DNA of 64,000 nt. Source: Tessaracoccus oleiagri (GTDB lineage: Bacteria > Actinomycetota > Actinomycetes > Propionibacteriales > Propionibacteriaceae). Made by a program: the position numbers and the translations under genes. Location of the stretch: the NCBI RefSeq assembly GCF_900103275.1, contig NZ_FNGP01000001.1:868001-932000 (forward strand), read 5' to 3'. This document shows, in pieces, positions 32,324-49,637 of this stretch (position 1 is the first letter of the stretch; each line of letters begins with the position of its first letter). The notes under the pieces are model-generated. The model did no database searches, was not told the DNA's origin, and saw only the letters and a program-made list of their open reading frames with translations.

Positions 32324-33724
32324 TCAGGCGAGCAGCTGCTCAGCGGCCTCCGCGATGGCCCGCACCAGCTCGGTGTCGCCGGCCAGGTCGGGGGCCACGA
32401 AGCCGAGCACGTTGGCGGCGTCCTCCTCGAGCGTGCCGCCGACGAGCGCCACCACCTTGTCCTTGGCCGCGTCCTTCACGGGTGCCCCGTGGCCGCGCAG
32501 GTGCAGCAGCCAGGCGGCGACCGCCGTCACGGCCGCCTTCGGCGTCTCGCCCTGCGCGCGGAAGCGGCGGAGCGTCGGGACGATGCGCACAGCGATCTTC
32601 TGCGAGCCGTCGGCCGCGATCTGCGCCAGCAGGTGGCGGATGTTCGCGTTCTCGTAGCGCTCGACGAGCGCGGCCGCGTACTCCTCCCACGGGACGCTGA
32701 GCCCGGGGCCCGCCTCGGACCACCAGGTCTGCACGAGCTCGCGGACGCGCTCGTCAGCCATCCCCTCGGAGACGGTCTCGATACCGAGGATCGGGCCGGC
32801 GTAGGCCATCAGGGAGTGGGAGCCGTTGAGCATCCAAAGCTTGCGCTGCTCGTAGGGCTCCACCTCGTCGACGATCTGCACGCCGGCGGACTCCCAGTCG
32901 GGCCGCCCGGCGGGGAACTGCCCGCTGATGACCCACTCGCTGAACGGCTCGGTCGGGACCGGCGCCGCGTCGTGGTAGCCCTGGGCGGCCTCCACGTCGG
33001 CGATCTCGGTGTCGGTCGTGGCCGGGGTGATGCGGTCGACCATCGAGGTGGCCCAGGCGACGTTCTCGCCCATCCAGTCCACCAGCGACGAGTCGGTGGC
33101 GGCTGCGGCGTCGCGGACGACGCGGCCGAACGCCTCGCCGTTGTCCGGGATGTTGTCGCAGGGGAGGATCGTGAGTGGCCCGACGCCGGCCGCGCGTCGC
33201 GCCAGGAGCCCGGCCATCACGCGGACGGGGGAGGTGACGACCTGCAGCGCCGCGATGTCCTCGACCGACGGGGCACCGTTCTCGAGCAGCTCGCGCACCG
33301 CGATGAGGTCGGCCGCGACCGCCGCGTCGGCGACGTCCAGGGACCCGTCGGAAGCCCGGTAGTAGCCGGCCTCGGTGACGGTGGAGGTCACGACCGCGAG
33401 CTCCGGTGACGCGAAGTAGCGCACGAGCGCGGCGAAGTCGGAAGCCGGGTGGACGTGCGAGACCGACGAGATGACCTCGTAGGAGTCGCCCTCGGCGCCC
33501 TTGGTGACCAGCGTGTACAGGCCGTCCTGCGGGGTCAGCAGCTCGGCCATGGTGGGACGGCGGCCGGTGAAGGCCGCGATGCCCCAGTCGTCGCGGTCGG
33601 AGGCGTGCTCGGTGTACCAGGCCTGGTGGGCACGGGTGAAGTTGCCCAGGCCCAGGTGGACGATGCGCACGGGGGCGGCCGGGCGTCCGAACTGGCTACG
33701 CGTGAGGGCGGGTACGGCGGTCAT
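32324..33724 (-). CDS. uxuB: Mannitol dehydrogenase-family protein, probable D-mannonate oxidoreductase (fructuronate reductase)
   Basis: The 466-residue NAD-dependent enzyme belongs to the polyol-specific long-chain dehydrogenases. The N-terminal IVHLGLGNFTRAHQAWY binds NAD, and the catalytic signature is KLWMLNGSHS (Lys, Asn, His). As the partner of UxaC in the same operon it would reduce D-fructuronate to D-mannonate. Tagaturonate reduction (UxaB) or a polyol dehydrogenase role are alternatives that sequence alone cannot exclude. It lies 35 nt after uxaC and is the last gene of a six-gene minus-strand operon that begins with larE. Confidence 0.82.
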   Translation of the reverse strand: MTAVPALTRSQFGRPAAPVRIVHLGLGNFTRAHQAWYTEHASDRDDWGIAAFTGRRPTMAELLTPQDGLYTLVTKGAEGDSYEVISSVSHVHPASDFAALVRYFASPELAVVTSTVTEAGYYRASDGSLDVADAAVAADLIAVRELLENGAPSVEDIAALQVVTSPVRVMAGLLARRAAGVGPLTILPCDNIPDNGEAFGRVVRDAAAATDSSLVDWMGENVAWATSMVDRITPATTDTEIADVEAAQGYHDAAPVPTEPFSEWVISGQFPAGRPDWESAGVQIVDEVEPYEQRKLWMLNGSHSLMAYAGPILGIETVSEGMADERVRELVQTWWSEAGPGLSVPWEEYAAALVERYENANIRHLLAQIAADGSQKIAVRIVPTLRRFRAQGETPKAAVTAVAAWLLHLRGHGAPVKDAAKDKVVALVGGTLEEDAANVLGFVAPDLAGDTELVRAIAEAAEQLLA

Positions 33725-33759
33725 GGTGTTCCTTTCTGAAGAGTCCGGGTCCCGGAATC

Positions 33760-35178
33760 TCACAACTTGAAGGCGCGCTTCGGCTGGGTGGTGACGAGCT
33801 CGACGGCGGTCTCGGCCGCCTCGTCGAGGCTCAGGCGGTGCTCCGCGACCAGCCCGGCGAGGTACGCCGAGTCGACGCGGCGGGCGGCGTCGTGGCGCGC
33901 CGGGATGGAGCAGAAGGCGCGCGTGTCGTCGATGAAGCCGGAGCCCTTGTGCAGCGTGCCGTAGCCGGTGGTGGCGCGGCGGAACCGCATCATGGCGTCG
34001 TTCTCGTCGATGAACCACCAGGGGGCGCCGATGTACATGCCGCGGTACCAGCCGGCCAGCGGGGCGAGCTCGCGGGAGTAGACCGTCTCGTCCATGGTGA
34101 ACACGACGAGCTGGAACCCGTCGGCGTTGCCGTAGGCGGAGAGGATCGGCTGGAGGGAGGCGGCGAACTCCACCGGCAGCGGCACGTCGCCGCCGACGTC
34201 GGCGCCGTAGCGCTCGAAGGTGGCGGTGTCGTGGTTGCGGTACACGGCCGGGTGCAGCGTCATGACGAGCCCGTCCTCGACGGCCAGTCGGGCCTGCTCG
34301 TTGACCATGTGGGCGCGCAGCGCGTCGCCCTCGTCGACGGTGATCTCGCCGGCGAGCGCCCGGGCGAAGAGGCGCTCGGCCTCGGCGTCCGCCAGCCGCT
34401 CGCAGCGGGCGTCGCGGTGCGAGTGGTCCGATGACACGGCGCCGTGGTCGACGAAGTAGCGGCGGCGGATGCGCATGGCCTCCACGTGGTCGGCATAGCT
34501 GCCGATCTCCACGCCCGCGGCCTCGCCGAGCTGCTTGGTCAGCTCCACCCAGCCGGCGCGGGCGGGCTCGAGGTACTTGTCGGGGCGGAACGTCGGCACG
34601 ACGCGGCTGTCCCACGTCGGGTCGTCGACGAGCTGCTGGTGCCCGGCGAGGTCGTCGCAGGGGTCGTCGGTGGTGGCGAGGAAGTCGATGTTGAAGCGCT
34701 TGTACAGCGCGCGGGGCTTGTACTCGTCGGTGCCGAGGCGCTCGAGGATCTGGTCGTAGATCCGGTCGGCGGTCTCGGCGGAGGGCCGGACGTCGATGCC
34801 GAACACGTCGACGAACTGCGACTCGAACCAGAACTGCACCTGGGTGCCGCGGAACACCTTCCAGTTGGAGCAGAAGATGCGGAACGCCTCACGCGACTTC
34901 TCGGGGCTCATGGGGGAGCCGACCGGGACGCCGAGGTCCTCGAGCTCCACGCCCGCGACGCTGTGCAGCAGACGGTTGGTGTAGTGGTCCGGCGTCAGCA
35001 GGAGCGTGGTCGGGTCGGTGAAGGGGGTGTCGTCGGCGAGCCACTGCACCGGCACGTGGCCGTGGGGGGAGATGATCGGGAGGTCGGCGACGCGGGCGTA
35101 CAGCTCGCGGGCGATCTCGCGGGTCGCCGGGTCGGCCGGGAAGAGCCGGTCGGGGTGCAGGGTGAGCGGTTCGGGCAT
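33760..35178 (-). CDS. uxaC: Glucuronate/galacturonate isomerase
   Basis: The 472-residue metal-dependent aldose-ketose isomerase converts D-glucuronate to D-fructuronate and D-galacturonate to D-tagaturonate. It shows the UxaC N-terminus (LHPDRLFPADP), the metal ligand pair in SPHGHVP (about residues 38-44), and HSHRDARCERLAD further on. The length is typical. It is preceded by the LacI regulator with a 6-nt gap and followed by the uxuB-like gene. Neither mannonate dehydratase (uxuA) nor KDPG aldolase is seen in the window. Confidence 0.94.
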   Translation of the reverse strand: MPEPLTLHPDRLFPADPATREIARELYARVADLPIISPHGHVPVQWLADDTPFTDPTTLLLTPDHYTNRLLHSVAGVELEDLGVPVGSPMSPEKSREAFRIFCSNWKVFRGTQVQFWFESQFVDVFGIDVRPSAETADRIYDQILERLGTDEYKPRALYKRFNIDFLATTDDPCDDLAGHQQLVDDPTWDSRVVPTFRPDKYLEPARAGWVELTKQLGEAAGVEIGSYADHVEAMRIRRRYFVDHGAVSSDHSHRDARCERLADAEAERLFARALAGEITVDEGDALRAHMVNEQARLAVEDGLVMTLHPAVYRNHDTATFERYGADVGGDVPLPVEFAASLQPILSAYGNADGFQLVVFTMDETVYSRELAPLAGWYRGMYIGAPWWFIDENDAMMRFRRATTGYGTLHKGSGFIDDTRAFCSIPARHDAARRVDSAYLAGLVAEHRLSLDEAAETAVELVTTQPKRAFKL

Positions 35179-35184
35179 CGGATT

Positions 35185-36243
35185 TCACTCCATCTTCTGG
35201 CGGGGTAGGTGTGTGGTCGGACGTGCCGGTCCGACGCTGTCCCTCAGGTGCAGGTCCATGGGGACGACGATCGTCTCCGCACTCGGGGCGGAGCGGTGTC
35301 GCAGCTGGGTGATGAGGGCGCGCGCGGCGCGCATGCCGATCTGGCTGGTGGAGGGTGCGACGCTGGTGAGCGTCGGGGTGGTCAGCACCGACGAGATCGA
35401 GTTGTCGACGCCGGCCACGGACACGTCCTGGGGGACGCGCAGCCCGGAGCGCTGCACCGACTTCATGAAGCCGATGGCCATCATGTCGTTGTAGCCGATG
35501 ACCGCCGACGTGGGGTGCTCCATCCAGGCGGCCGCGGCAGCGACTCCGCCGTCGAGCGAGGGGGCGTAGGGCCCGATGCGCCGCACCACGAGGTTGAGCT
35601 CGTGGCAGGCCTCGGAGACGGCGCGCCACCGCACCCCGTCGGCCCAGGAGGCGGCGGGCCCCGCGATGTAGGTGAAGCGCGTGTGCCCGAGCGAGGCGAG
35701 GTGCTCGACGAGGCGCCGCATCCCGCGCGGGGTGTCGGCGACGATGGAGGGCAGGCCCGCGATGATGCGGTTGACGGACGCGACCGGCCGGACCTTCACG
35801 ATCTGCGTGATCGCGGAGTCGCTCAGCCGGGACGCGCCCAGCACGAGCCCGTCGACGAGCGGCGCGAGCCGGCTGATGCTCTCGCGCTCGATCTTGGCGT
35901 CCTCGCGGGTGTCGATCAGCAGGACGGAGTAGCCGTGCTCGGCGGCCTCGTTCTGGAAGCCCTTCATGATGTGGGCGAACACGGGGTTGGCGACGTCCGC
36001 AACGACGAAGCCGAGCGTGTTCGTCGCGACGCCGGCCTTGTTCTGCGCCAGCGGTTTGGCGCGGTAGCCGAGCTCCTGCGCGGTGGCGCGGATCCGCTCC
36101 GCGGTGTCGGCGTTGACGCGGCCGGGCCGCGCGAACGTCCGCGACACCGTCGACGGCGCGACGCCCGCCACCCGGGCGATGTCGTAGATGGTGACTTTCT
36201 TCCTGCGTATCGGGGTGTCAGTCGGAACTTCGTCGTCCGTCAT
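35185..36243 (-). CDS. LacI-family transcriptional regulator
   Basis: The 352-residue protein has an N-terminal helix-turn-helix (VTIYDIARVAGVAPSTVSR, about residues 16-34) with a hinge helix after NADTAERIRATAQELGY, followed by a periplasmic-binding-protein-like effector domain. The ATG at 36243 overlaps the larC stop by 4 nt, so it is co-transcribed with the nickel-pincer genes and uxaC. Likely a local repressor responding to a sugar acid. Candidate sites in the cluster include the perfect palindrome at 43911-43922. Confidence 0.93.
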   Translation of the reverse strand: MTDDEVPTDTPIRRKKVTIYDIARVAGVAPSTVSRTFARPGRVNADTAERIRATAQELGYRAKPLAQNKAGVATNTLGFVVADVANPVFAHIMKGFQNEAAEHGYSVLLIDTREDAKIERESISRLAPLVDGLVLGASRLSDSAITQIVKVRPVASVNRIIAGLPSIVADTPRGMRRLVEHLASLGHTRFTYIAGPAASWADGVRWRAVSEACHELNLVVRRIGPYAPSLDGGVAAAAAWMEHPTSAVIGYNDMMAIGFMKSVQRSGLRVPQDVSVAGVDNSISSVLTTPTLTSVAPSTSQIGMRAARALITQLRHRSAPSAETIVVPMDLHLRDSVGPARPTTHLPRQKME

Positions 36244-37652
36244 CTCCGTACGCCCCCTTCCTCCTCCGGCCAGGGCGCGCCGGGGTAGAGCCCGGCGGCC
36301 CAGGCGACAGACTGTGCCTGGGTGAGCGCCACGCGCTGCGCGACGCCAAGGTGTTCGGCGAGTTGTTCCACGTCGATGAACTCGGCGGTGGCCTGCTGGA
36401 TGGTGTGCCCGACGCCCTCGCCGGACACCTTGATGCGGACGCTGAAGCCCTCGACCTCGACCGGGATCCAGACCCGCTCGAGCACGCGGCGGTGCATCGG
36501 GGCCGTGATGCGCACCCCGATCGTCGACGTGTGGGTGACGAGGGCGTCGGCGACGTAGTCGACGCAGTCCGCGGGCGCGATCGCGGTGATCGTGTGCGCC
36601 GGGCGGCCCTTCTTCATGATGATCGGGACGAGCCACGCGTCGACGGCGCCGGCGTCGAGGAGCCGGTCGATGACGGCTGGCCAGACGCGCGGGTCGAGGT
36701 CGTCGACGTTGGCCGAGACCTCGTGGATGGTGGTCTCGGGGCGGTCGCCCTGGGTCTGGGCCGTGGCGGGTCGCGGCCTCTCGACCACCTCATCGCCGAC
36801 GGTGGCGCGCAGCACGCCGGCGCGGTCGGCCCGGACCTTGGACCCCGCGCCGATGCCGATGTTGCGCAGCGTCATCTTCGGCAGCGGTTCGACGGCGTCG
36901 CAGATCGCGCGGAGCAGGGCGAGCCCGGTCGGGGTGCACAGTTCGCCTGCCTCCGGCGGGCCGCCGGCCTCCACCTGCCACCCGCGGGCGAGTTGGAGCA
37001 CGGCCGGCGGCGGGACGGTGAGCAGGCCGTGCTGGGTGTTGACGGTGCCGGTGCCGACGGCGACGACCGAGCAGGTCGCGCGGCCGATGCCGAGGGTGCG
37101 GACAGCTTCCGCGACGCCGACCATGTCGCCGATCGAGTCGAGGGCGCCGACCTCGTGGAAGTGGACGTCTTCGACCTCCACGCCGTGGACGTGCGCCTCC
37201 GCACGGGCGAGCCGCCGGAACGCGTCGAGCGCGAGCTCGCGGGTCTCGTCGGGAACCCCGTCCACCGAGAGCATCGCCTCGATGTCCGACAGGTGCCGCG
37301 CGGGCGGGTCGACCTCGTCGGCGATGACGTCGACCTTCATCGCCTGGAACGGGCCGCGCTCCACCCGTCGCCACTGGAGGTGCAGCTTGCCCGGCGCGAC
37401 GAGCTGCAGCACCGCGGCGACGCTGGCCGCGTCCGCGCCCGCGTCGAGCAGCGCGCCGAGCAGCATGTCGCCGCTGGCGCCCTGGCTGGCGTCGATCCAC
37501 AGCCGACGTCGCGGCGCGCCCTCGTCCACCCACAGCTTCCCGGCGGGGATCACGGTGCCCGGCGCGACGATGTCACCGTCGGCGGTGGTGATGCCGTCGG
37601 GGAGCGACTTCGGGTGATGGTGGTGGTGGCCGCCGGCGTGGTTGTCATGCAT
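36240..37652 (-). CDS. larC: Nickel-pincer cofactor biosynthesis protein LarC (nickel insertion)
   Basis: The 470-residue cyclometallase inserts nickel into the pyridinium bis-thiocarboxylate mononucleotide made by LarB and LarE, giving the NPN cofactor of LarA enzymes. It carries LWIDASQGASGDMLLGALLD, HFHEVGALDSIGD and GELCTPTG motifs of LarC, and a C-terminal domain with SANVDDLDPRVW. A His-rich N-terminus (MHDNHAGGHHHHHPK) probably binds nickel. In Lactiplantibacillus plantarum larC is split and joined by programmed frameshifting; here both parts are one open frame. It overlaps larB by 8 nt and lacI by 4 nt. Confidence 0.94.
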   Translation of the reverse strand: MHDNHAGGHHHHHPKSLPDGITTADGDIVAPGTVIPAGKLWVDEGAPRRRLWIDASQGASGDMLLGALLDAGADAASVAAVLQLVAPGKLHLQWRRVERGPFQAMKVDVIADEVDPPARHLSDIEAMLSVDGVPDETRELALDAFRRLARAEAHVHGVEVEDVHFHEVGALDSIGDMVGVAEAVRTLGIGRATCSVVAVGTGTVNTQHGLLTVPPPAVLQLARGWQVEAGGPPEAGELCTPTGLALLRAICDAVEPLPKMTLRNIGIGAGSKVRADRAGVLRATVGDEVVERPRPATAQTQGDRPETTIHEVSANVDDLDPRVWPAVIDRLLDAGAVDAWLVPIIMKKGRPAHTITAIAPADCVDYVADALVTHTSTIGVRITAPMHRRVLERVWIPVEVEGFSVRIKVSGEGVGHTIQQATAEFIDVEQLAEHLGVAQRVALTQAQSVAWAAGLYPGAPWPEEEGGVRR

Positions 37653-38322
37653 GGGGTTTGTCCTTCGGGGCGGCGATCTGGGCGGCGAGGTGGCCTGCGC
37701 CGTAGCCGTTGTCGATGTTGACGACACCGACGCCGGGGGAGCAGGAGTTGAGCATGGAGAGCAGCGCGGAGACGCCCTCGAAGGCGACGCCGTAGCCCAC
37801 GGAGGTGGGCACCGCCACGACGGGGCAGGCGACGAGCCCGGCGACGACGGGCACGAGTGCCGCGTCCATGCCGGCGACCGCGACCACCACGTCCGCCGAG
37901 CGGAGCACGTCGCGCTTGGAGAGGATGCGGTCGAGGCCGGCCACGCCCACGTCGACCACCTCCGTGACCTCGCGCCCGAGGTACCGGGCGGTGAGGGTGG
38001 CCTCGCGGGCGACGCGCAGGTCGGCGGTGCCGGCGCACACGACGACTACGCGGCCGCCCGTCGGCCGCGGCGGCTCGGCCGGCCACGCGATGAGCGACGA
38101 GGTCTCGTCGTGGTGGGCGTCCGGGAGCTCGGCGAGGACGACCTCCGCCTGCTCCGGGCTGACGCGCGTGAACAGCACGGGGCCGAGGTCCTGCCGGGCC
38201 GCGCGCTCCCGCCAGGCGCGGGTGATCTCGACGAGCTGCGCGACGGACTTGCCCTGGCAGAGCACCGCCTCGGGGTAGCCGCGGCGGGCGTAGCGGTCGA
38301 AGTCGAGGGTGGCGACGCTCAT
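37645..38322 (-). CDS. larB: Nickel-pincer cofactor biosynthesis protein LarB
   Basis: The 225-residue carboxylase/hydrolase acts on nicotinic acid adenine dinucleotide: it carboxylates the pyridinium ring and releases AMP to give pyridinium biscarboxylate mononucleotide. It resembles PurE in its C-terminal half, with VVVCAGTADLRVAREA, AGMDAALVPVVAGL and VPTSVGYG. The ATG at 38322 overlaps the larE stop by 4 nt. It is the second enzyme-coding gene of the larE-larB-larC-lacI-uxaC-uxuB run. Confidence 0.95.
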   Translation of the reverse strand: MSVATLDFDRYARRGYPEAVLCQGKSVAQLVEITRAWRERAARQDLGPVLFTRVSPEQAEVVLAELPDAHHDETSSLIAWPAEPPRPTGGRVVVVCAGTADLRVAREATLTARYLGREVTEVVDVGVAGLDRILSKRDVLRSADVVVAVAGMDAALVPVVAGLVACPVVAVPTSVGYGVAFEGVSALLSMLNSCSPGVGVVNIDNGYGAGHLAAQIAAPKDKPHA

Positions 38323-39200
38323 GCGGCACCCGGCCTGGCGGTGAGCAACTGCAGCGTGAAGGCGCCGGACTGGATGCCGGCGAGGTCGAGCACCGCGTGC
38401 TTGAAGCCCGCGGCGCGGACGGCGGCCAGGAGCCGCTCCCGACGCTCGTCGTCCGCGACCAGCGCGAACTCGGACGAGGGCACCTCGATCCGGGCGATGT
38501 CGCCGTGGTGGCGGACCCGGCAGTCGGAGAACCCGGCGGCCAGGACAGCGTCCTCGGCCGCGTCGACCTGCAAGAGCTTCTCGGCGGTGACGGGCTCGCC
38601 GTGCGGGACGCGGCTGGCGAGGCACGGTGCCGCGGGCTTGTCGGCGCTGCTCAGCCCGAGCGCGCGGGCGATGGCCCGCACGTCGGCCTTCGTGGCGCCG
38701 GCGGACGCCAGCGGGTGCAGGACGCGGTGCTCACGGGCGGCGCGGGCGCCGGGGCGGTCGGGGCGCGCGGCGTCGTCGAGGTTCTCGCCGTAGGCGATGG
38801 CGTCCAGCCGCAGGCGGCCGACGAGGTCGTCGTCGAGGCGGGTGAACAGCTCGTCCTTGCAGAAGTAGCAGCGGTCGACGGGGTTCGCCGCGTACTGCGG
38901 GTTGTCGAGCTCGCGGGTCTCCACCTCCACGAGCGGCAGGCCCAACTCGTCGGCCTGGCGGGTGGCGAGGCGCCGCTCGCGCTTCGCCAGCGACGGGGAG
39001 ACCGCCATCAACAGCGTGGTGCAGTCGGGCCCGACGGCCCGGGCGGTCAGGGCAGCGAGCACGGTGGAGTCGACGCCGCCGGAGTAGGCGACGCCGACGC
39101 GGGCGCGCGGCCCCGCGGCGTCGCGGATGTCTCGGGCGACGCCGTCGGCGATCCGCTGCAGGTCCGGCTGCAGTTGGATGAACAGGTCGGTGGTGGTCAT
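38319..39200 (-). CDS. larE: ATP-dependent sulfur transferase LarE
   Basis: The 293-residue PP-loop ATPase (SGGVDST, residues 40-46) activates the carboxylates of the LarB product and replaces oxygen with sulfur. Cys193 in APCLASRVPHG corresponds to the sulfur-donor cysteine of the family. Two further cysteines, Cys111 and Cys114 in RCYFCK, form a CxxC motif; together with Cys193 they could bind an iron-sulfur cluster, as reported for some non-sacrificial LarE proteins. This is inference. The ATG at 39200 lies 5 nt after a 23-codon upstream reading frame and heads the enzyme part of the operon. Confidence 0.93.
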   Translation of the reverse strand: MTTTDLFIQLQPDLQRIADGVARDIRDAAGPRARVGVAYSGGVDSTVLAALTARAVGPDCTTLLMAVSPSLAKRERRLATRQADELGLPLVEVETRELDNPQYAANPVDRCYFCKDELFTRLDDDLVGRLRLDAIAYGENLDDAARPDRPGARAAREHRVLHPLASAGATKADVRAIARALGLSSADKPAAPCLASRVPHGEPVTAEKLLQVDAAEDAVLAAGFSDCRVRHHGDIARIEVPSSEFALVADDERRERLLAAVRAAGFKHAVLDLAGIQSGAFTLQLLTARPGAA

Positions 39201-40589: not shown

Positions 40590-40691
40590 GCCTCGTGGCC
40601 CGGCCTCCCCTGCAACTTTCGGCAAGGGGAGGCCGACAACTGCAATCCGGCATAGATTCGACGGAAACCCAGGAACAAGGAGGTCCGAAAC

Positions 40692-41861: not shown

Positions 41862-41878
41862 CACCAGCCGAACGACGA

Positions 41879-41911
41879 GGGAGGGGGCGACCGTGACGGT
41901 CGCCCCCTCCC
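41879..41911. terminator. Bidirectional hairpin terminator
   Basis: Perfect 15-bp arms beginning GGGAGGGGGCGACC pair around a TGA loop between convergent genes. The A/T runs are weak, but the stem is very strong. Confidence 0.8.
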
Positions 41912-41930
41912 TTCGCGTTCCGGGCCGGGA

Positions 41931-42785
41931 CTAGAACTTGTCCTGGAAGCCCATCTTCACGAGGTTGTCGTGGGAGAGCTGCAGCGCCTCGAACGGGGCG
42001 CGGCCGTACGTCGCGTCCTGCTCGACGTACAGGTGCTTCGCGCCCACCTCCTCGGCCGCGGCGATCATCGCCGGGAAGTCGAGGTTGCCCTCGCCCACCT
42101 CGGCGAACTGCACGACGCCGAGGAAGTGCTGCATGAAGGCGCCGAAGTCCTTCTTGTCGTAGGCCTCGAACGCCTCGTCGCCCAGCAGCCCGATGCGGTA
42201 GTCCTTCAGGTGGACGAGGTCGACGACCCCGTCGTACTGCTTGAGGAAGCGGATGGGCTCGAGGCCGCCGCGGTGCACCCAGTGGAGGTCGATCTCGTAG
42301 CGCAGGTTGGGCGCCGTCTCGCGGATCAGGTCGAGGATGAACTGGCCGTCGATGCGCGCGAACTCGACGTGGTGGTTGTGGTAGCAGAGCGTGATGCCCT
42401 CGCCGGCGAGCCGCCTGGCCGCCTCGTCGGCGCGACGCGAGTAGTCGACGATGGTCTCGCGCGAACGCATGGCCTCGGGGGCCATCATGCCGATGCGGAC
42501 GAACGGCGCGCCGAGGCGCTTGGCGTCGGAGACGATCTTGTCCATCGTGCCGCTCAGGGAGTCCGCGCCCTCCGGCGCGTCGAGCGGTGCGGAGATCGCG
42601 GAGAACTCGAGCCCGAAGTCGCCCTTCGCGCGCTCCATCTCCGCGACGTTGTCGGGGGACATCGAGACCTGCGACAGCTCGAGGTTCCTGAAGCCGATCT
42701 CCGCGATCTGCTTGAGCGCTTCGTAGGTGCCGAGGCGGGTGAACTCCTCGCGCACCGTCATGACCTGCAGGCCGATTCTCGCCAT
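41931..42785 (-). CDS. Sugar phosphate isomerase/epimerase-like TIM-barrel protein
   Basis: The 284-residue protein belongs to the xylose isomerase-like/AP endonuclease 2 superfamily, with metal ligands in GITLCYHNHHVEF, LRYEIDLHWVHRGG and LVHLKDY, and the C-terminal YVEQDA. The N-terminus MARIGLQVMTVREEF is typical of IolE/IolH-like proteins paired with Gfo/Idh enzymes. Possible roles are a keto-sugar epimerase, an inosose dehydratase-like enzyme or a 3-keto-glycoside beta-eliminase. Its ATG overlaps the stop of the upstream Gfo/Idh gene by 1 nt, so the two work as a pair. Confidence 0.85.
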   Translation of the reverse strand: MARIGLQVMTVREEFTRLGTYEALKQIAEIGFRNLELSQVSMSPDNVAEMERAKGDFGLEFSAISAPLDAPEGADSLSGTMDKIVSDAKRLGAPFVRIGMMAPEAMRSRETIVDYSRRADEAARRLAGEGITLCYHNHHVEFARIDGQFILDLIRETAPNLRYEIDLHWVHRGGLEPIRFLKQYDGVVDLVHLKDYRIGLLGDEAFEAYDKKDFGAFMQHFLGVVQFAEVGEGNLDFPAMIAAAEEVGAKHLYVEQDATYGRAPFEALQLSHDNLVKMGFQDKF

Positions 42786-43813
42786 TACTGCTCCTTCGGT
42801 TGGGTTCTCTCGGGGTAACTCTGGTCGTAGACGTCGGCGATGATCTCCAGGCTCCTGCGCGCCTCGTCGGCGCTGATCCAGAAGCCCTCGTCGCTGCCGA
42901 GCTGGCTGTAGAAGTCACGGATGAGGTCCTCGTGCGAGGTGCCCCAGTAGTCGCGGCCGTCGCTGGACGCGGGTGCCGGGGTGATCCGCTCGGTCCGCCC
43001 GTCGGTGTGCGCGATGGTCAGGTCCTCGCCGATGCGGAACACGGCGGTGTCGGTGACGACCTCCACCAGGACGGAGTCGTTGATGGTGTGCGCGTTCGTC
43101 GCGTAGAAGATGCTCGTCGCGCCGCCGGCGTGCGTGAGGAGCATGTCCGCGGTGTCCTCCACCTCGATACTATCCGCCAGCGCGCGGGTGTGGGCGGCCC
43201 CGTCGACGCGCTCCACCGGGCCCACGAGCCACTGGAGGAGGTCGACGGTGTGGATGGCCTGGTTCATCAGGAGGCCGCCGCCGCTGTTCGCCCAGGTGCC
43301 GCGCCACGGCTTGCTCGCGTAGTACGCGGGGGTGCGGGTCCACATCACCGTGCCAGCCCCGCCGCGGATCGTGCCGAACTCCCCGGACGACAACCGCTCG
43401 CGCGCGATGCGCACCGGGGCGTTGTAGCGGTTCTGGAAGCAGACGCCGAGCTTCGCCGAGCTCGCCGCCTCTGCGGCGATGACCCGGTCCGCGGACGCGA
43501 GCGACTCCGCCAGCGGCTTCTCGGTGAGCACGTTCACGCCTGCCTCGAGGCAGGCGATGATGACCGGCGCGTGCTGGTCGTGCGGGGTGCAGACGTGGAC
43601 GACGTCGACCTGCTCGTTGGCGAGGAGCTCCTCGACCGAGGAGTACCCGGGCACGCCGTGCGCGGTTGCCGCGGCTTCACGGGCGACGGGGTCGACGTCG
43701 CACACCGCGACGAGCTCCGCCAGCTCGAGCTTGCGCAGGGCGGCCAGGTGGACCACCGAAATGTCTCCGCAGCCGACCACGGCCGCTCGATACGTCTGCA
43801 AGGCGTTCACCAC
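42785..43813 (-). CDS. Gfo/Idh/MocA-family oxidoreductase paired with TIM-barrel protein
   Basis: About 342 residues, starting at one of two adjacent GTG codons (43810 or 43813). The Rossmann loop is AVVGCGDISVVHL, the EKP motif is present (TEKPLAES), and the catalytic segment reads GGGLLMNQAIHTVDLLQWLVG. This is the third oxidoreductase of the family in 4.3 kb, and the three differ clearly from one another. First gene of a two-gene operon with the TIM-barrel gene, divergent from the GPH symporter across a region with a perfect 12-nt palindrome. Confidence 0.87.
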   Translation of the reverse strand: MVNALQTYRAAVVGCGDISVVHLAALRKLELAELVAVCDVDPVAREAAATAHGVPGYSSVEELLANEQVDVVHVCTPHDQHAPVIIACLEAGVNVLTEKPLAESLASADRVIAAEAASSAKLGVCFQNRYNAPVRIARERLSSGEFGTIRGGAGTVMWTRTPAYYASKPWRGTWANSGGGLLMNQAIHTVDLLQWLVGPVERVDGAAHTRALADSIEVEDTADMLLTHAGGATSIFYATNAHTINDSVLVEVVTDTAVFRIGEDLTIAHTDGRTERITPAPASSDGRDYWGTSHEDLIRDFYSQLGSDEGFWISADEARRSLEIIADVYDQSYPERTQPKEQ

Positions 43814-43867
43814 TCCAATCGACTGTACGTCTCAGGCTCGCACGCCGGGCGAGTGCGACGCAGGGGG

Positions 43868-44027: not shown

Positions 44028-45497
44028 ATGACCACCACACTCAGCGCATACAAGGGGAAGCTCAGCACTCGCCCCTTCGGCATGCGCGACAAGCTGGGCT
44101 ACATGTTCGGTGATTTCGGCAACGACTTCACCTTCATCCTCCAGTCCGCGTTCTTCATGCTGTTCTTCACCAACGTGGTGGGGATCAACCCGGCCCACGT
44201 CGGCCTCCTCCTGCTCGGCGCCCGCGTCCTCGACGGCTTCACCGACGTCGGCATGGGCATCATCGTCGACCGCCTCCCCGTGAAGGAGGGGCAGTACAAG
44301 TTCAAGCGCTGGATCAAGTACATCGCCATCCCGGTGGCCGTGGCCTCCGCGCTCATGTACATGTCCTTCGTCGCCGACTTCGACTCCTACGCGCTGAAGG
44401 TGACCTGGATGGTCGCCACCTACCTGCTGTGGGGCTCGATCTGCTACACGGCGATCAACATCCCCTACGGCTCCATGGCTTCCGTCGTCTCCGGCAACCC
44501 CGACGACCGCGCCCAGCTGTCCGTGTTCCGCTCCACCGGCGCCACGCTCGCCAACCTGGCGATCATGGCGATCCTGCCGCTGGTCGTGTACACGGTGAAC
44601 GCCGACGGCGTCTCGGTGCTGTCCGGCCCGCGCATGACGATGGCCGCCGTGGTCTGCTCCATCCTCGCCGTCGCCTGCTACGCGGTCTGCTTCGCCCTCG
44701 TCGAGGAGCGCGTCCCGTCGTCCGTCAAGGGCAAGGCCGAGGGCGGCCAGAGCATCGGCAAGATGCTCAGCACCGTGTTCACCAACAAGGCACTGCTCGG
44801 CCTCATCGCGGCGGCGCTCATCCTGCTGCTGACGTTCATGTTCCTGGGCGGCATCCTCGGCTACCTGTTCCTGAACTACTTCGGCGACGGCACCTGGCAG
44901 TCGCCGGCCTCGATCGCGGGCATCGCCCCGTCGCTGGTCCTGATCTTCATCTCGCCCTGGCTCGCCAAGCGCTTCGGCAAGGCCGAGGTCGGCATCGTCG
45001 CGATGTTCGTCGGCGGCGCCACCCTGCTCGTCGCGTACTTCCTGAAGATCGAGAACCCCGCCATCTGGATCGTCTTCTACGCCATCACGATGTTCGCCAT
45101 CCAGGTCTTCAACTTCCTGATCTGGGCGCTCATCACCGACGTCATCGACTACCAGGAGGTCCGCACCGGCTCCCGCGACGACGGCACCGTCTACGCCGTC
45201 TACTCCTGGGCCCGCAAGCTGGGGCAGGCCCTCGCCGGCGGCCTCATCGGCTTCGCGCTCGGCGCGGTCGGCTTCGACGCGGCGGTGGCCGCGGCGGGCG
45301 AGGCGCAGGCCGAGTCGGTTCAGCAGGGCATCTACATGCTGGCCAACCTGCTCCCGGGCATCGGCGCGATCCTCGTCGCCCTGGCCCTGCTCTTCCTCTA
45401 CCCGCTGAAGAAGAACAAGGTCGCCGAGAACGTGCGCATCCTCGAGGAGCGTCGCGTGGCGGCGGGCGTCGCCCCCCACTCGGACGACATGAAGTAA
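44028..45497 (+). CDS. GPH-family (glycoside-pentoside-hexuronide:cation) symporter
   Basis: The 489-residue membrane protein has about 12 transmembrane segments. The family motif near FGDFGNDF at the first helix and DGFTDVGMGIIVDR in loop 2-3 identify the GPH (melibiose/glucuronide) group of the major facilitator superfamily, and loop 10-11 has DVIDYQEVRTG. It would import a glycoside or hexuronide with a cation. The substrate is probably the glycoside handled by the surrounding genes. The ATG at 44028 follows GGAGCGGAG. Confidence 0.9.
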   Translation: MTTTLSAYKGKLSTRPFGMRDKLGYMFGDFGNDFTFILQSAFFMLFFTNVVGINPAHVGLLLLGARVLDGFTDVGMGIIVDRLPVKEGQYKFKRWIKYIAIPVAVASALMYMSFVADFDSYALKVTWMVATYLLWGSICYTAINIPYGSMASVVSGNPDDRAQLSVFRSTGATLANLAIMAILPLVVYTVNADGVSVLSGPRMTMAAVVCSILAVACYAVCFALVEERVPSSVKGKAEGGQSIGKMLSTVFTNKALLGLIAAALILLLTFMFLGGILGYLFLNYFGDGTWQSPASIAGIAPSLVLIFISPWLAKRFGKAEVGIVAMFVGGATLLVAYFLKIENPAIWIVFYAITMFAIQVFNFLIWALITDVIDYQEVRTGSRDDGTVYAVYSWARKLGQALAGGLIGFALGAVGFDAAVAAAGEAQAESVQQGIYMLANLLPGIGAILVALALLFLYPLKKNKVAENVRILEERRVAAGVAPHSDDMK

Positions 45498-45511
45498 CCA
45501 CCCCGAACGGC

Positions 45512-45541
45512 GAGGGCCTCCACCGATCGGTGGGGGCCCTC
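45512..45541. terminator. Bidirectional hairpin terminator
   Basis: GAGGGCC and GGCCCTC pair with an inner stem (CCACCGATCGGTGG) between the convergent symporter and LarA-like genes. Confidence 0.75.
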
Positions 45542-45559
45542 CTTCGTCGTATGGGGGAT

Positions 45560-46867
45560 TCAGGCGGGGAGCTTGCCGCGCTGCGCCTCCGTGCGGTGCA
45601 GCAGCTCGCCCGCGTGCGGAACGACCAGCGTGTCCGGGTCCGCCTCGAAGGCCGCGAGGTCCACGTCGGAGGGGTCGAGGTAGTTGAGGCTGATCCGCTC
45701 GACGACCTCGCGCGGGATCCCCGTCGCGAGCGTCACCGTGACGCGGTTGGTCTCCACGCCGGTCTCGGGGTCGTAGTCGCCCAGGCCGCGCAGGTGCGTC
45801 GAGTGGGCGAGTTCGCCCCACGGGTGGTCCTTGAACCGCTCCCACTGGCCGACGAAGTACTGGCGGTTGTGGTAGCCGATGTCCTCGATGCCCGGGTGCA
45901 TCACCGACACCTGCTTGATGTGCGGCGCATAGATGATGAGTTCGCCCCCGTCGGCGACGACGGGCTCGAGCTTGTAGAAGCCCTTGGCGCCGGTCCACAT
46001 GTCCTCGTACATCTCGGGGATTATCGAGACCACCCGCTTGTACGCCTTGGGCACGTACTTCACGTGCACCTGGCTCGACACCTCGGCGCACGCCTCCCAG
46101 GCGGCCCGCGAGTCGCCGAAGGCCATGAACTGCAGGTCGTCGCTGCCCGGCTTCACGATCATGCCGAGCAGGAGCTTCGTCGACGGGATCAGCTCGGCGG
46201 CCGCGTCGATCATCTGCCGGACGGGCGTGATGCCGGTGGTGCCGATCATCTCGAAGCTCGTGATGAGGGCGCCCACCCAGTGCGACATGTCGATCACGTC
46301 GTGCCCGGAGAGGCCGGGGAAGAAGTACTTGTTGCCGCCGGAGATGCCGACCACCTCGTGCGGCAGCACGGGGCCGAGGATGAGCGAGATGTCGGTGTCG
46401 ACCACCATCTTGTTGACGTGGACGGTCATGTCGCGGTCCGTGAGCCGGCCGCCCGTCAGCTCGCCGATCCGCGCCGCGGGGATGGTGCCGAGGTTCGCGA
46501 AGGTCTCCTCGTTGCGCCAGTCGTGGTTGAAGATCCTCCAGCCGGGGTAGGTCTCCTCGAACCGGCCGGGCTCGCAGCCCATCAGCTTCCCGATCGCGGC
46601 GTCGTTCATGTAGTCGTGGGTGCCCAGCGCGATCACGACGCGCACGTCGGCGGGGCGGTCGCCCAGCGCCTCGTGGACGATCTTCGTCACCACGTCCACC
46701 GGGGCGTGACGGGTCCCGTCGGGAACGATGAACGTCACGCGCTTGCCGTCGAAGTCGTAGGCGCGCAACTGCTCGAGGACGAACGCGCGGATCTGGTCGT
46801 GGCTGAGGACCTGATCGGGCCCGCCGATGCGGGCGGCCTCGTCGATCCCGGGGTAAAGGCTGGTCAT
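45560..46867 (-). CDS. LarA-like nickel-dependent hydroxyacid racemase/epimerase (DUF2088)
   Basis: The 435-residue enzyme uses the nickel-pincer nucleotide to move hydride at C2 of a 2-hydroxyacid. By motif and spacing the key LarA residues are present: Asp50 and Arg53 in PDGTR, His84 in ALGTH, His170 in LPHEVVG, Lys180 in GGNKYFFPG (cofactor attachment) and His196 in MSHW. Relatives include lactate racemase, malate racemase and a D-gluconate 2-epimerase. The context (uxaC, uxuB, a kinase and gnd, plus cofactor genes in the uronate operon) favours a sugar-acid 2-epimerase such as mannonate-gluconate, but this is inference. A nearby ldh makes lactate racemase the main alternative. It is monocistronic, between two hairpin terminators. 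Confidence 0.88.
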   Translation of the reverse strand: MTSLYPGIDEAARIGGPDQVLSHDQIRAFVLEQLRAYDFDGKRVTFIVPDGTRHAPVDVVTKIVHEALGDRPADVRVVIALGTHDYMNDAAIGKLMGCEPGRFEETYPGWRIFNHDWRNEETFANLGTIPAARIGELTGGRLTDRDMTVHVNKMVVDTDISLILGPVLPHEVVGISGGNKYFFPGLSGHDVIDMSHWVGALITSFEMIGTTGITPVRQMIDAAAELIPSTKLLLGMIVKPGSDDLQFMAFGDSRAAWEACAEVSSQVHVKYVPKAYKRVVSIIPEMYEDMWTGAKGFYKLEPVVADGGELIIYAPHIKQVSVMHPGIEDIGYHNRQYFVGQWERFKDHPWGELAHSTHLRGLGDYDPETGVETNRVTVTLATGIPREVVERISLNYLDPSDVDLAAFEADPDTLVVPHAGELLHRTEAQRGKLPA

Positions 46868-47041
46868 GAGCCATACCTACCACAGGGCGGTTCGCGGGTC
46901 TCTCCGCTGGGCCAAGTTGGCAAAAGGTGCCGTCGGGTCTCGGCCCGGCCAAGCCGCCAGCGATTCCTACTTGCACCAGCCATGCATCGCAGGTGTACGT
47001 AGGAAACGCAGGTGAACGTGGTGGGCGGGTAGGAACGACGA
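46868..47041. promoter_or_regulatory. larA-like promoter region
   Basis: This 174-nt stretch upstream of the LarA-like gene contains an imperfect TTGCC-N5 half (minus strand, 46910-46923) and short repeats of ACGTAGG/CGCAGGTG (46997-47020). No convincing -10 or -35 box was found. Confidence 0.25.
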
Positions 47042-47073
47042 ACGGCGCCGGGCCCCGAGGGGTCCGACGCCGT
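47042..47073 (-). terminator. Hairpin terminator after the kinase gene
   Basis: ACGGCG and CGCCGT arms enclose a nested CCCC/GGGG stem downstream of the PfkB-type gene. The trailing T-run is poor, so termination strength is uncertain. Confidence 0.5.
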
Positions 47074-47087
47074 CCGATGCGGTTTCG

Positions 47088-48161
47088 TCAGCGCTTGACG
47101 CGGGCGTTGCCCGACCAGATGGACCAGACCTGGTCCTCGTCGGCCGGTGCGCCGTAGTCGTAAATGCTGGTGGCCGCCAGCGCGCCGGTGGCCCAGCCGA
47201 ACTGCATGCACTGCTCGGGCTTCCAGCCCTTGAGGATGCCGTACAGCACGCCACCGATGGAGCCGTCGCCGCCGCCGATGCGGTCGATGACGTCGATGTC
47301 GCGGAGCTCGGCGACGTTGAACTCGCCCTCGCCCCACAGGATCATGCCCCACTTGTGCTGGTTGGCCGAGACGACCTCACGCAGCGATGTGCCGATGTAC
47401 TGCGCGTCCGGGTACTGCTCCTGGATGCGGCCGATCATCTGCTTGAACGACTCGATCTCCTCGGCGATGTCCTTGCCGCCGGCCTCGGGGCCCTGGATCC
47501 CCAGGCAGAGCTGGAAGTCCTCCTCGTTGCCGTACAGCACGTCGCAGAGGCTCGCGATCTCGCGGAACGCGGCCGACAGCTCCTCCTCGCGGCCCTTCCA
47601 GAAGGTGGCGCGGTAGTTGAGGTCGAAGCTGATCCGGGTGCCGTGCTCCTTGGCCTTGCGGGCCACCTCGACGCAGAACTTCGACGTCTCGGGCGACAGC
47701 GCGGCGATCAGGCCGGACAGGTGCAGGATCTTCACGCCCTCGTCACCGAACAGCTTGTCGAGGTCGAAGTCCTCGACCTTCAGCGTCCGTCCGACCTCAC
47801 CCGCGCGGTCGTTCCACACGCGCGGGCCGCGGCCTCCGTAGCCGGAGTCGGCGATGTTGAACTGGTGTCGGTAGCCCCAGGCGTCGCCCTGCGGCACGTC
47901 GGGGCCCTCGTACGCCATACCGCGGGCACGCAGGTTGGCCTTGATGAACGCCGAGATGGGCGAGCCCTCCACGAAGTTCGTCAGCACCTTGACCGGCAGG
48001 CCCAGGTGGGACGCCACGGAGGCGACGTTCGACTCGGCCGAGGTGGCCTGCATCAGGAAGCGGTCCGAGTAGTGGACCGGCTGGCGGTTCTCGGGGGTGA
48101 TCCGCACACCCATGGACGTGGGGGTGACGAGCGCCCACTTCGCGTCTTCACGCAACTGCAT
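47088..48161 (-). CDS. PfkB-family sugar-acid kinase (KDG kinase-like)
   Basis: The 357-residue kinase has the C-terminal PfkB signature as DRIGGGDGSIGG with catalytic base Asp299, slightly altered from the usual GAGDAF. FDLNYRATFW (about residues 179-188) is a feature of 2-keto-3-deoxygluconate kinases. Either it phosphorylates KDG or, as its place before gnd suggests, a related sugar acid such as gluconate. The latter is not a known activity of the PfkB kinases that I recall, so it is a hypothesis. It follows gnd by 21 nt on the same strand. Confidence 0.83.
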   Translation of the reverse strand: MQLREDAKWALVTPTSMGVRITPENRQPVHYSDRFLMQATSAESNVASVASHLGLPVKVLTNFVEGSPISAFIKANLRARGMAYEGPDVPQGDAWGYRHQFNIADSGYGGRGPRVWNDRAGEVGRTLKVEDFDLDKLFGDEGVKILHLSGLIAALSPETSKFCVEVARKAKEHGTRISFDLNYRATFWKGREEELSAAFREIASLCDVLYGNEEDFQLCLGIQGPEAGGKDIAEEIESFKQMIGRIQEQYPDAQYIGTSLREVVSANQHKWGMILWGEGEFNVAELRDIDVIDRIGGGDGSIGGVLYGILKGWKPEQCMQFGWATGALAATSIYDYGAPADEDQVWSIWSGNARVKR

Positions 48162-48182
48162 GTCGGTTCGGCTCCTCTCAGC

Positions 48183-49637
48183 TCACCACTGGACTTCGGC
48201 GCGGCCGTCTTCCGCCCACATGGTGTGGAAGGCGCCCTCGGCGTCGGTCCGCTGGTAGGTGTGGGCGCCGAAGAAGTCGCGCTGGCCCTGGATGAGGGCG
48301 GCGGGCAGACGCTCGGAGCGGACACCGTCGTAGTAGGACAGCGACGAGGAGAACACCGGCACCGGCACGCCGTGCAGGGTGGCCTGGGAGACGACGCGTC
48401 GCCAGGACGGCAGGGCGTCGACGATGCGCTCGTAGAAGTACGAGTCGCCGATCAGCAGGGGGAGCTTGGCGTCGGCGTCGTAGGCGCGGGTGATCTCGTT
48501 GAGGAACTGGGCCCGGATGATGCAGCCGCCGCGCCAGATGCGGGCGAGCGCGCCGAGGTTGATGTCCCAGCCGTAGGCCTCGGCCGCGGCCTGGATCTCG
48601 TTGAAGCCCTGCGAGTAGGCGACGAGCTTCGACGCGTAGAGCGCCTTGCGGACGTCCTCGATGAACGCCTCGCGGTCCTCGACGTTCCACTCCTGCGCCT
48701 CGCCGGCGAAGCCTTGGGCCGCCGCGCGCTGGGCGGGGGAGGAGGAGAGGCCGCGCGCGAACGTCGCCTCGCCGATGCCGGTCACCGGGACGCCGAGGTC
48801 GAGGGCGGTCTGCACGGTCCAGGCGCCGGTGCCCTTCTGGGCGGCGGCGTCGACGATCACGTCGACGAGCGGCTTGTCGGTCTTGGCGTCCACCTGACGG
48901 AGGACCTCGACGGAGACCTCCATGAGGTAGGAGTCGAGCTCGCCCTTGTTCCACTCGGCGAAGATGTCGGCGATCTCGGCGGGGCTCAGGCCCAGCGAGC
49001 GGCGCAGCAGGTCGTAGGCCTCGCCGATGACCTGCATGTCGGCGTACTCGATGCCGTTGTGGACCATCTTCACGAAGTGGCCGGCCCCGTCGGCGCCGAT
49101 GTAGGTGCAGCAGGGCTCGCCGTCGACGTGCGCGGAGATCTTCTCGAACATGGGACCGAGGCGGTCGTAGGACTGGGGGGAGCCGCCGGGCATGATCGAG
49201 GGGCCCCAGAGGGCGCCCTCCTCGCCGCCGGAGACGCCGGTGCCCACGAAGTGGAGGCCGCGCTCCTTGAGGGCGGCCTCGCGGCGGCGGGTGTCGGTGA
49301 ACAGCGAGTTGCCGCAGTCGACGATGATGTCGCCCTCCTCCATGCGGGAGGCGAGTTCCTCGATGACCGCGTCGGTGGGGGCGCCGGCCTTGACCATGAT
49401 GATGGCGACACGGGGACGCGACAGCGAGCCGACGAAGTCCTCCATGTTCTCGGAGGGGATGAACTCACCCTCGCTGCCGTGCTCGGTGTAGACCTCTTCG
49501 GTCTTGGCGCTGCTGCGGTTGTGGATGGCCACCTTGTAGCCATTGCGGGCAAGGTTGCGGGCGAGGTTCGAGCCCATCACACCCATGCCGGTGACGCCGA
49601 TGTCGGCGGAGGCGGGAGCGGGAATCGGAAGAGCCAT
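48183..49637 (-). CDS. gnd: 6-Phosphogluconate dehydrogenase, decarboxylating
   Basis: The 484-residue enzyme oxidises 6-phosphogluconate to ribulose 5-phosphate and CO2, usually with NADP. It has the N-terminal GMGVMGSNLARN, catalytic GVSGGEEGA, KMVHNGIEYADMQ (catalytic Lys), and the long C-terminal helical domain with GQRDFFGAHTYQR. The full length matches the long form. It heads a two-gene operon with the PfkB kinase, an arrangement that suggests 6-phosphogluconate is produced by the neighbouring enzyme. Confidence 0.96.
   Translation of the reverse strand: MALPIPAPASADIGVTGMGVMGSNLARNLARNGYKVAIHNRSSAKTEEVYTEHGSEGEFIPSENMEDFVGSLSRPRVAIIMVKAGAPTDAVIEELASRMEEGDIIVDCGNSLFTDTRRREAALKERGLHFVGTGVSGGEEGALWGPSIMPGGSPQSYDRLGPMFEKISAHVDGEPCCTYIGADGAGHFVKMVHNGIEYADMQVIGEAYDLLRRSLGLSPAEIADIFAEWNKGELDSYLMEVSVEVLRQVDAKTDKPLVDVIVDAAAQKGTGAWTVQTALDLGVPVTGIGEATFARGLSSSPAQRAAAQGFAGEAQEWNVEDREAFIEDVRKALYASKLVAYSQGFNEIQAAAEAYGWDINLGALARIWRGGCIIRAQFLNEITRAYDADAKLPLLIGDSYFYERIVDALPSWRRVVSQATLHGVPVPVFSSSLSYYDGVRSERLPAALIQGQRDFFGAHTYQRTDAEGAFHTMWAEDGRAEVQW

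Follow-up and report, generated by a model that had tools for sequence, protein, structure and literature searches.

A candidate glucuronate shunt through a nickel-pincer epimerase to the pentose phosphate pathway in Tessaracoccus oleiagri and its relatives

Positions 32324 to 49637 of the 64,000-nucleotide stretch of Tessaracoccus oleiagri DNA analysed here (the window) carry a gene cluster that we consider fairly likely to encode a glucuronate shunt, running through a nickel-pincer epimerase into the pentose phosphate pathway and bringing its own cofactor genes. In this route a GPH-family symporter would serve uptake, UxaC would isomerise glucuronate to D-fructuronate, and a UxuB-like reductase would take this to D-mannonate. 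LarB, LarE and LarC would make the nickel-pincer cofactor, and the LarA-like enzyme loaded with it would invert C2 of D-mannonate, yielding D-gluconate. A PfkB-family kinase would then form 6-phosphogluconate, from which Gnd would release ribulose 5-phosphate, CO2 and NADPH. The reading builds on the genes present, on residues and neighbourhoods that are conserved, and on a distribution across the family that is partly complementary to that of the mannonate dehydratases; the substrates, the placing of epimerisation before phosphorylation, and control by the LacI-family protein are all predicted from sequence. Of the routes tested, the one from mannonate through gluconate and 6-phosphogluconate to ribulose 5-phosphate agrees best with the comparative evidence: the neighbourhoods recur, 36 of the 67 family genomes with both LarA and UxaC have neither mannonate dehydratase, three kinase families including gluconokinase types take the kinase position, and a GntK-LarA fusion exists. 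A sequence-only reading of this stretch had proposed the same route as a bypass of mannonate dehydratase, 2-keto-3-deoxygluconate (KDG) kinase and 2-keto-3-deoxy-6-phosphogluconate (KDPG) aldolase. Comparative genomics supports the shunt itself, but not an exclusive bypass, as the genome also encodes, at another site, a ManD-type dehydratase, Eda and a PfkB protein resembling KDG kinases.

The cluster and its LarA-like enzyme

Genes were identified with curated NCBIfam models and with Pfam, and starts were re-examined separately. Every gene named in the sequence-only reading is present with curated-model or Pfam support:

32324..33724 (better start 33724), minus strand: uxuB-like, reductase of the mannitol dehydrogenase family (Mannitol_dh and Mannitol_dh_C over cut-off)
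33760..35178, minus strand: uxaC, glucuronate isomerase (NF002794 516.2 bits, equivalog cut-off 387; PF02614)
35185..36243, minus strand: LacI-family regulator (PF00356, Peripla_BP_3)
36240..37553 (start 37553 or 37529), minus strand: larC, nickel insertion for the nickel-pincer cofactor (TIGR00299 183.1 bits, cut-off 90; NF052512 108.6 bits, cut-off 50)
37645..38322, minus strand: larB, nickel-pincer cofactor synthesis (NF033503 266.8 bits, cut-off 175)
38319..39200, minus strand: larE, sacrificial sulfur transferase for the cofactor (TIGR00268 261.5 bits, cut-off 150)
44028..45497 (start 44028 or 44082), plus strand: GPH-family symporter (TIGR00792 282 bits, cut-off 231.35)
45560..46867, minus strand: LarA-like, nickel-pincer hexonate 2-epimerase, probably for D-mannonate/D-gluconate (PF09861)
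47088..48161, minus strand: PfkB-family sugar-acid kinase, predicted gluconate (or mannonate) kinase (PF00294)
48183..49637, minus strand: gnd, NADP-dependent 6-phosphogluconate dehydrogenase (NF006765 736.6 bits, cut-off 413; TIGR00873 669.1 bits, cut-off 426.7)

The first minus-strand group reads larE-larB-larC-lacI-uxaC-uxuB-like from 39200 down to 32324. Since these six genes share a strand and are separated by overlaps or short gaps, it is reasonable to predict that they form one operon, as had been proposed from the letters alone. The second group, 6 kb away, reads gnd-pfkB-larA-like from 49637 to 45560, with 21 bp between gnd and pfkB and 220 bp between pfkB and larA. The symporter gene and two Gfo/Idh genes on the plus strand, and an IolE-like gene and a third Gfo/Idh gene on the minus strand, separate the two groups. 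Within 32324-49637 lie all five components of a shunt of the type proposed by Rodionova et al. (uxaC, reductase, LarA-type epimerase, kinase and gnd), the substrate of the kinase being a prediction, and the cofactor genes larB, larC and larE that accompany the LarA superfamily all score over their curated cut-offs inside the window. The uxaC gene is the sole UxaC match in the genome; gnd is the sole full-length match genome-wide, a second match (96 bits, on contig C8) being partial.

The UxuB-like protein is probably the reductase that takes fructuronate to D-mannonate, a role suggested by its neighbourhood with UxaC; it also reaches 271 bits with a D-arabinitol dehydrogenase model, below that model's cut-off. 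For the symporter, the runner-up model is that of a glucuronide transporter (203 bits, below the cut-off of 528), and uptake of a glucuronide or hexuronate is its probable role. The LacI-family protein is probably a local repressor. Searches for its operator, as palindromes in the intergenic regions of the window and as shared 14-mers upstream of cluster genes from 24 sources, returned GC-rich noise only.

The LarA-like protein carries the domain of the LarA superfamily (PF09861, 76.2 bits, cut-off 23.3). Its closest solved chain is 4nar, at 198 bits and 35% identity over 382 aligned positions, which is GntE2 of Thermotoga maritima (PMC7583248; papers given here by PMC number are cited from excerpts). 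Residues D50, R53, H84, H170, K180, H196 and K295 are invariant in all 42 LarA loci compared (45 matched loci minus three duplicates); their roles, as cofactor-binding Arg, Lys and His and as catalytic Asp, His, His and Lys, were assigned from PMC7583248 and from alignment with solved chains. Groups 18-20 of the LarA homologues (LarAH) are marked by an E-V/S loop after the catalytic His, a W in helix 11 and an A/V in helix 14 (PMC7583248). The first two of these signatures map to E171 and V172 in the loop and to W291, and are likewise invariant in 42 of 42 loci. We regard the protein as a probable nickel-pincer D-mannonate/D-gluconate 2-epimerase.

It is very improbable that this enzyme is instead an ordinary lactate or malate racemase that stands here by chance. 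An L-lactate dehydrogenase gene at 52574-53533 would suit such a reading, but the lactate- and malate-racemase models give 59 of 460 and 92 of 500 bits, the protein matches GntE2 much better than it does the lactate racemase chain 2yjg (39 bits), and the loop and tryptophan of the GntE type do not vary. The racemase identity was rejected on these model scores and residues. Among the named genomes, six LarA-like relatives were found, among them those of Tessaracoccus massiliensis (whose best segment is 93% identical), of three metagenome assemblies (two of Propionibacterium, one of Propionibacteriaceae), of an Actinomycetales assembly and of Propioniciclava.

Neighbourhoods and distribution

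We compared 40 LarA loci of up to 20 kb from 39 genomes, chosen, mostly as the top-ranked, from 75 clade matches of at least 289 bits and excluding the window; 11 of them are shorter than 19.9 kb, owing to contig ends or, for locus L076, to a shorter stretch taken. A LacI gene is found at 25 of these loci, uxaC at 23, gnd at 19, a uxuB-like gene at 18, larE at 12, larB at 11 and larC at 8, and kinases are present as window-type PfkB (11), FGGY (4), KDG-kinase homologue (3) and GntK (1). Where uxaC is present, 11 of the 23 loci have a kinase (PfkB, FGGY or GntK), 14 have gnd, 18 have the uxuB-like gene and 9 have at least one lar synthesis gene, and neither ManD nor Eda exceeded the score threshold at any of the 23. 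Often (pfkB)-uxuB-uxaC and larA are transcribed divergently, and lacI, gnd, larE, larB and larC lie next to them. In the 29 full-length neighbourhoods we found 15 gnd genes, where 0.18 would be expected (a rough figure that assumes one gnd per 3.2 Mb and ignores relatedness), and the co-occurrence is therefore not due to chance. Gene order across related genomes, which the sequence-only reading had named as a check, thus speaks for it, with gnd, uxuB, larEBC and a kinase recurring beside LarA. Furthermore, beta-glucuronidase genes over cut-off occur at two loci, L062 and L065.

Some loci depart from this pattern or repeat it. The 2.76 Mb genome G045 has two gnd-pfkB-larA-larEBC clusters (L052 and L057), with LarA proteins 97% and 83% identical to that of the window and uxaC about 9-11 kb from each copy. 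At L091 (9167-10498) the LarA gene is fragmented across frames in a genome without a uxaC match, with gnd and pfkB still open; here LarA has decayed together with the loss of uxaC. In the different LarA context of L080 and L076 (genomes G049 and G048), a P-loop protein of about 180 residues stands beside LarA; its two versions share 65% identity and match no NCBIfam model, and KDG-kinase homologues also lie nearby.

To follow the distribution, 198 Propionibacteriaceae genomes were searched for LarA, UxuA, UxaC, ManD, GntK and KDPG aldolase. Membership of the LarA clade was taken as one match of at least 289 bits (leaving out 9 of 82 genomes with weaker matches), UxuA as at least 250 bits in one stretch (leaving out 19 of 53 genomes), ManD as a score over the curated cut-off, and a strong KDPG aldolase match as E of at most 1e-15 (45 of 169 genomes have weaker matches only). 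The LarA clade is present in 73 genomes, UxaC in 104 and both in 67, so that uxaC accompanies 67 of the 73 clade genomes vs 37 of the 125 others (Fisher p 1e-18, relatedness ignored). In 36 genomes the two genes are divergent and less than 1 kb apart, and in 14 more they lie 1-15 kb apart.

The distribution of the clade is partly complementary to that of the mannonate dehydratases. Both UxuA and ManD are absent from the 36 genomes mentioned above (35 when UxuA-like matches that are split but exceed the Pfam cut-off are included; G096, one of the 36, has a weaker ManD-family match), compared with 10 of the 37 genomes that have UxaC without the LarA clade (p 0.013, relatedness ignored); UxuA or ManD is present in the other 27. 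As the genomes are related, these p-values are only indicative. Within the genus of the window, a dehydratase is present in one of seven genomes with LarA and UxaC, namely the window's own, vs six of seven with UxaC but not LarA, and in G008, G026 and G035, which have no clade LarA, uxaC lies beside or near manD. Fifteen of the 36 dehydratase-less genomes have no strong KDPG-aldolase match, a count unaffected by the split UxuA-like matches, and nine of these (G032, G071, G072, G073, G081, G103, G131, G166 and G171) have no match to the family at all. G029, G045, G071 and G171 are single-contig assemblies of 99% completeness. The control genome of Corynebacterium glutamicum has UxaC and GntK, with no UxuA, ManD or PF01081 match.

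Outside the family, nine plasmid records matched in a search for LarA relatives. Two Embleya records (Streptomycetaceae) have uxuB-larE-larB-uxaC divergent from LarA-larC-lacI within 10 kb, with LarA at 57% identity. On a plasmid of the marine gammaproteobacterium Saccharobesus litoralis CCB-QB4 (L110, 8479-10248), a 589-residue protein annotated merely as gluconokinase is a GntK-LarA fusion: residues 3-157 match GntK (TIGR01313 184.8 bits, cut-off 113.75) and residues 171-581 the hexonate epimerase (NF052594 618.9 bits, cut-off 500). Next come larE, larB, a gene annotated as tagaturonate epimerase, gnd and uxaC; larC and uxuB had no match in this stretch. The plasmid's tagaturonate epimerase and Thermotoga GntE are discussed in PMC7953866, which in the excerpt cited does not mention the fusion. 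In Catenovulum adriaticum the order is uxaC-TRAP transporter-GntK-LarA-larC-larE-larB. Since the LarA proteins of S. litoralis and C. adriaticum share 27-30% identity with that of the window, the association there is either independent or very old.

The genes between the two groups of the cluster appear to be accessory, and three of the four have homologues at some of the 40 loci:

39510..40589, plus strand: Gfo/Idh/MocA oxidoreductase (PF22725, PF01408)
40692..41861, plus strand: Gfo/Idh/MocA oxidoreductase, Gfo2 (PF01408; homologues at 5 of 40 loci)
41931..42785, minus strand: IolE-like TIM-barrel protein (PF01261 55.4 bits; homologues at 4 of 40 loci)
42785..43813, minus strand: Gfo/Idh/MocA oxidoreductase, Gfo3 (PF01408; homologues at 6 of 40 loci)

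The products of these genes (39510-43813) might serve to liberate or prepare a derivative of inositol or a glucuronide. Elsewhere in the window, a single 545-residue frame at 22491-24128 on the minus strand joins a NUDIX domain to a polyprenyl synthetase domain; an amine-oxidase-type flavoprotein (18618-20138) and a P450 (16625-17818) lie near it, by appearance an isoprenoid or carotenoid gene group.

The kinase and the competing routes

The assignment of a PfkB sugar-acid kinase in the sequence-only reading holds as far as the family is concerned; the step it would catalyse is less clear-cut, the nearest solved relative being a KDG kinase. The protein belongs to the PfkB family and not to the gluconokinase families GntK (TIGR01313) or FGGY (TIGR01314). 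Its best model is NF041633 (157.8 of 700 bits), and it stays below the cut-offs of the KDG-kinase models NF041332 (98.1 of 440), NF040938 (41.7 of 400) and NF052444 (35 of 400). With the PfkB paralogue next to ManD and eda it shares 31.7% identity. By sequence, then, the kinase is KDG-kinase-like, and gluconate or mannonate is its predicted substrate. These acids are favoured over KDG because G029, G041 and G045 have orthologues at 82-98% identity, because an FGGY kinase replaces PfkB at 4 of the 40 LarA loci, and because in G103 a GntK-type gluconokinase over cut-off starts inside the end of the LarA gene. The three genomes with orthologues have no UxuA over cut-off, no ManD, no GntK match and a weak KDPG-aldolase-family match only, and for the two FGGY kinases scanned the gluconokinase model was best (330 and 372 bits, below the cut-off of 648.55). 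No GntK over cut-off was found in the window's genome, where FGGY kinases were not searched genome-wide. Across the family, a test for complementarity with GntK is weak: of 15 genomes whose cluster holds a PfkB or FGGY kinase, one has GntK, vs 76 of 183 others (p 0.011) and 5 of 12 that have uxaC beside LarA but no kinase found there (p 0.06).

Could the kinase act before the epimerase? In that case the PfkB protein would be a D-mannonate kinase and the LarA-like protein a nickel-pincer 6-phosphomannonate 2-epimerase, so that 6-phosphogluconate would arise without free gluconate. Extracts of Lactobacillus suebicus were found to phosphorylate mannonate and then to epimerise 6-phosphomannonate, through genes that are unknown, with no conversion of mannonate to gluconate in 0.5 h without ATP (Valk et al. 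2020, PMC6978723). These are exactly the two activities that this order requires. The high Michaelis constants (KM) of GntE-type enzymes for free mannonate (17 and 120 mM in PMC7583248; 9.4 and 3.8 mM in PMC11770544, which added LarAH15 and LarAH10) also favour it, as does the position of the window kinase outside the known gluconokinase families. However, GntE enzymes do act on free mannonate and gluconate (PMC7583248, PMC11770544), and kinases of the same neighbourhood elsewhere are of the gluconokinase type by best family match, although the mannonate kinase of L. suebicus was also taken for a GntK homologue (PMC6978723). Taken together, we consider phosphorylation first to be unlikely.

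A further alternative keeps the classical lower half: ManD would make KDG, the PfkB protein of the cluster would be a second KDG kinase, and the LarA-like enzyme would only salvage gluconate or another hexonate into mannonate. The genome, which is 99.98% complete, does contain such a lower half. At C1:715.6-718.6 kb, about 185-200 kb from the cluster, it encodes a mannonate dehydratase of the ManD type (689.5 bits against a cut-off of 550) together with eda (245 bits, cut-off 156) and a PfkB protein that resembles KDG kinases, so that a dehydratase route from mannonate through KDPG aldolase is encoded. This, the resemblance of the window PfkB to KDG kinases, and the KDG-kinase homologues at three of 40 loci, in G049 accompanied by a KDPG-aldolase homologue, all favour the classical lower half. 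Against it stand the dehydratase-less genomes, including the nine without any match to the KDPG aldolase family; the window-type kinase in G029, G041 and G045, which lack the dehydratases and keep a weak aldolase-family match; and the frequency of gnd at LarA loci, with ManD and Eda below threshold at all 23 loci that hold uxaC. We think this alternative quite unlikely, and somewhat more so than phosphorylation before epimerisation.

What the genome does establish is that the bypass is not obligatory there, because ManD, a KDG-kinase-like protein and a KDPG aldolase are encoded elsewhere; the shunt would run alongside them as an option. The sequence-only reading had found no uxuA and no KDPG aldolase gene in the window. 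A search of the whole genome found no UxuA either, and all three KDPG-aldolase-family matches of the genome lie outside the window; a genome-wide check for both, as that reading had suggested, therefore finds uxuA absent and a KDPG aldolase present beside ManD. The 16 kb around ManD showed no uxaC and no uxuB. A weak match in the genome is a distant family member at L006 7091-7834 on the minus strand (G000:C1, about 15.1-15.8 kb; TIGR01182 50.6 of 156 bits), and weak PF01081 matches of similar strength are common across the family. At L005 8023-11152 (G000:C1, 32-35 kb) lie a galactonate dehydratase (DgoD), a KDPGal aldolase, a KDGal kinase and an ABC substrate-binding protein, by sequence a separate galactonate route of the DeLey-Doudoroff type. 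The idea of an Entner-Doudoroff edd gene was dropped, both PF00920 genes being dihydroxy-acid dehydratases.

Several observations weigh against the shunt, the first of them in the proteins themselves. Although its best model is that of the group-18 hexonate epimerases (NF052594), the LarA-like protein scores 171.7 bits there, below the cut-off of 500, and is therefore placed nearest to that clade and not filed in the family; the UxuB-like protein reaches 241.9 of 603 bits with the fructuronate reductase model NF011611 (PRK15037); and the solved relative nearest to the kinase is the T. maritima KDG kinase 2afb. The set at C1:715.6-718.6 kb of the window's genome counts on the same side, as do the KDG-kinase and KDPG-aldolase homologues beside LarA in G049. 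Across the family, 31 of the 67 genomes with LarA and UxaC keep UxuA or ManD, and loss of KDPG aldolase is not enriched (a strong match in 51 of 67 vs 31 of 37 genomes with UxaC but not LarA, p 0.46). A weak PF01081 match is kept in six of the 15 genomes without a strong one (G029, G041, G045, G125, G147 and G148), and the match of like strength in the window's genome, that at L006, is only distantly related to the aldolases; in G045 there is, in addition, a UxuA match below cut-off (20.6 of 23.7 bits). LarA stands without uxaC in reach in some genomes, with the two far apart on one contig in 5, on different contigs in 12, and no uxaC at all in 6. GntK-type genes also adjoin ManD or UxuA in G026, G035, G086 and G141. 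Outside the family, neither a PfkB or other kinase nor gnd had a match in 19 kb of either Embleya record, and gnd had no match in the first C. adriaticum stretch. S. litoralis CCB-QB4 is reported to have a mannonate dehydratase gene as well and not to grow on galacturonate, and whether its epimerase pathway functions is questioned (PMC7953866).

Significance and relation to known systems

If the shunt operates as proposed, the nickel-pincer cofactor has a core catabolic task in an actinobacterial family, in many members of which it would take over from mannonate dehydratase, KDG kinase and KDPG aldolase in breaking down glucuronate, with NADPH and pentose phosphate as products rather than pyruvate and triose phosphate. 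With the cluster, a route that has until now been put forward chiefly on genome context could be tested on a small set of genes. The cluster also implies a PfkB kinase of novel specificity and provides candidate genes for two orphan activities. Should phosphorylation come first, it would supply the genes for both orphan activities of L. suebicus, a phosphorylated sugar acid would become a substrate of the nickel-pincer family, and the high KM of GntE for unphosphorylated acids would be explained. For L. suebicus, the conversion of uronate to ribulose 5-phosphate was argued to involve no net redox change (PMC6978723), which makes such a route of interest for the use of uronate-rich plant sugars.

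The sequence-only reading had left open how far the route had been described before. Epimerisation of mannonate to gluconate followed by entry into the pentose phosphate pathway was proposed for Thermotoga by Rodionova et al. in 2012 (PMC6978723, PMC7583248), and D-mannonate/D-gluconate epimerisation was shown in 2020 for T. maritima GntE2 and C. glutamicum GntE1, the group of the latter having a uronic-acid gene context (PMC7583248). In the literature covered, which leaves out most subscription journals and is thus weak evidence of absence, no such cluster was named in Propionibacteriaceae. The biochemistry itself had thus been proposed before; what sets the present variant apart is a predicted operon that includes the cofactor genes, a family in which dehydratases are partly replaced, kinases that are interchangeable, and the fusion of GntK to LarA.

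Compared with the classical UxaC-UxuB-UxuA (or ManD)-KdgK-Eda pathway, the upper half of the window's route is identical, but its cluster holds no dehydratase or aldolase, ManD and Eda being encoded elsewhere in the genome. With GntE1 and GntE2 of LarAH groups 18-20, the window protein shares the catalytic and cofactor residues, the E-V/S loop and the helix 11 tryptophan, while remaining below the cut-off of the group-18 model. The galacturonate-phosphoketolase route of L. suebicus likewise proceeds by the upper isomerase pathway to mannonate and on through 6-phosphogluconate to ribulose 5-phosphate; it differs in phosphorylating first, and the window supplies candidates for the genes unknown there. 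The GntE/GntK/Gnd branch of T. maritima has the same upper isomerase pathway to mannonate, a C2 epimerase of the LarA family, a gluconate kinase and 6-phosphogluconate dehydrogenase. The window differs from it in its PfkB kinase, in the presence of larE-larB-larC in the predicted uxaC operon and in a LarA 35% identical to 4nar, and many relatives of the window lack both mannonate dehydratases.

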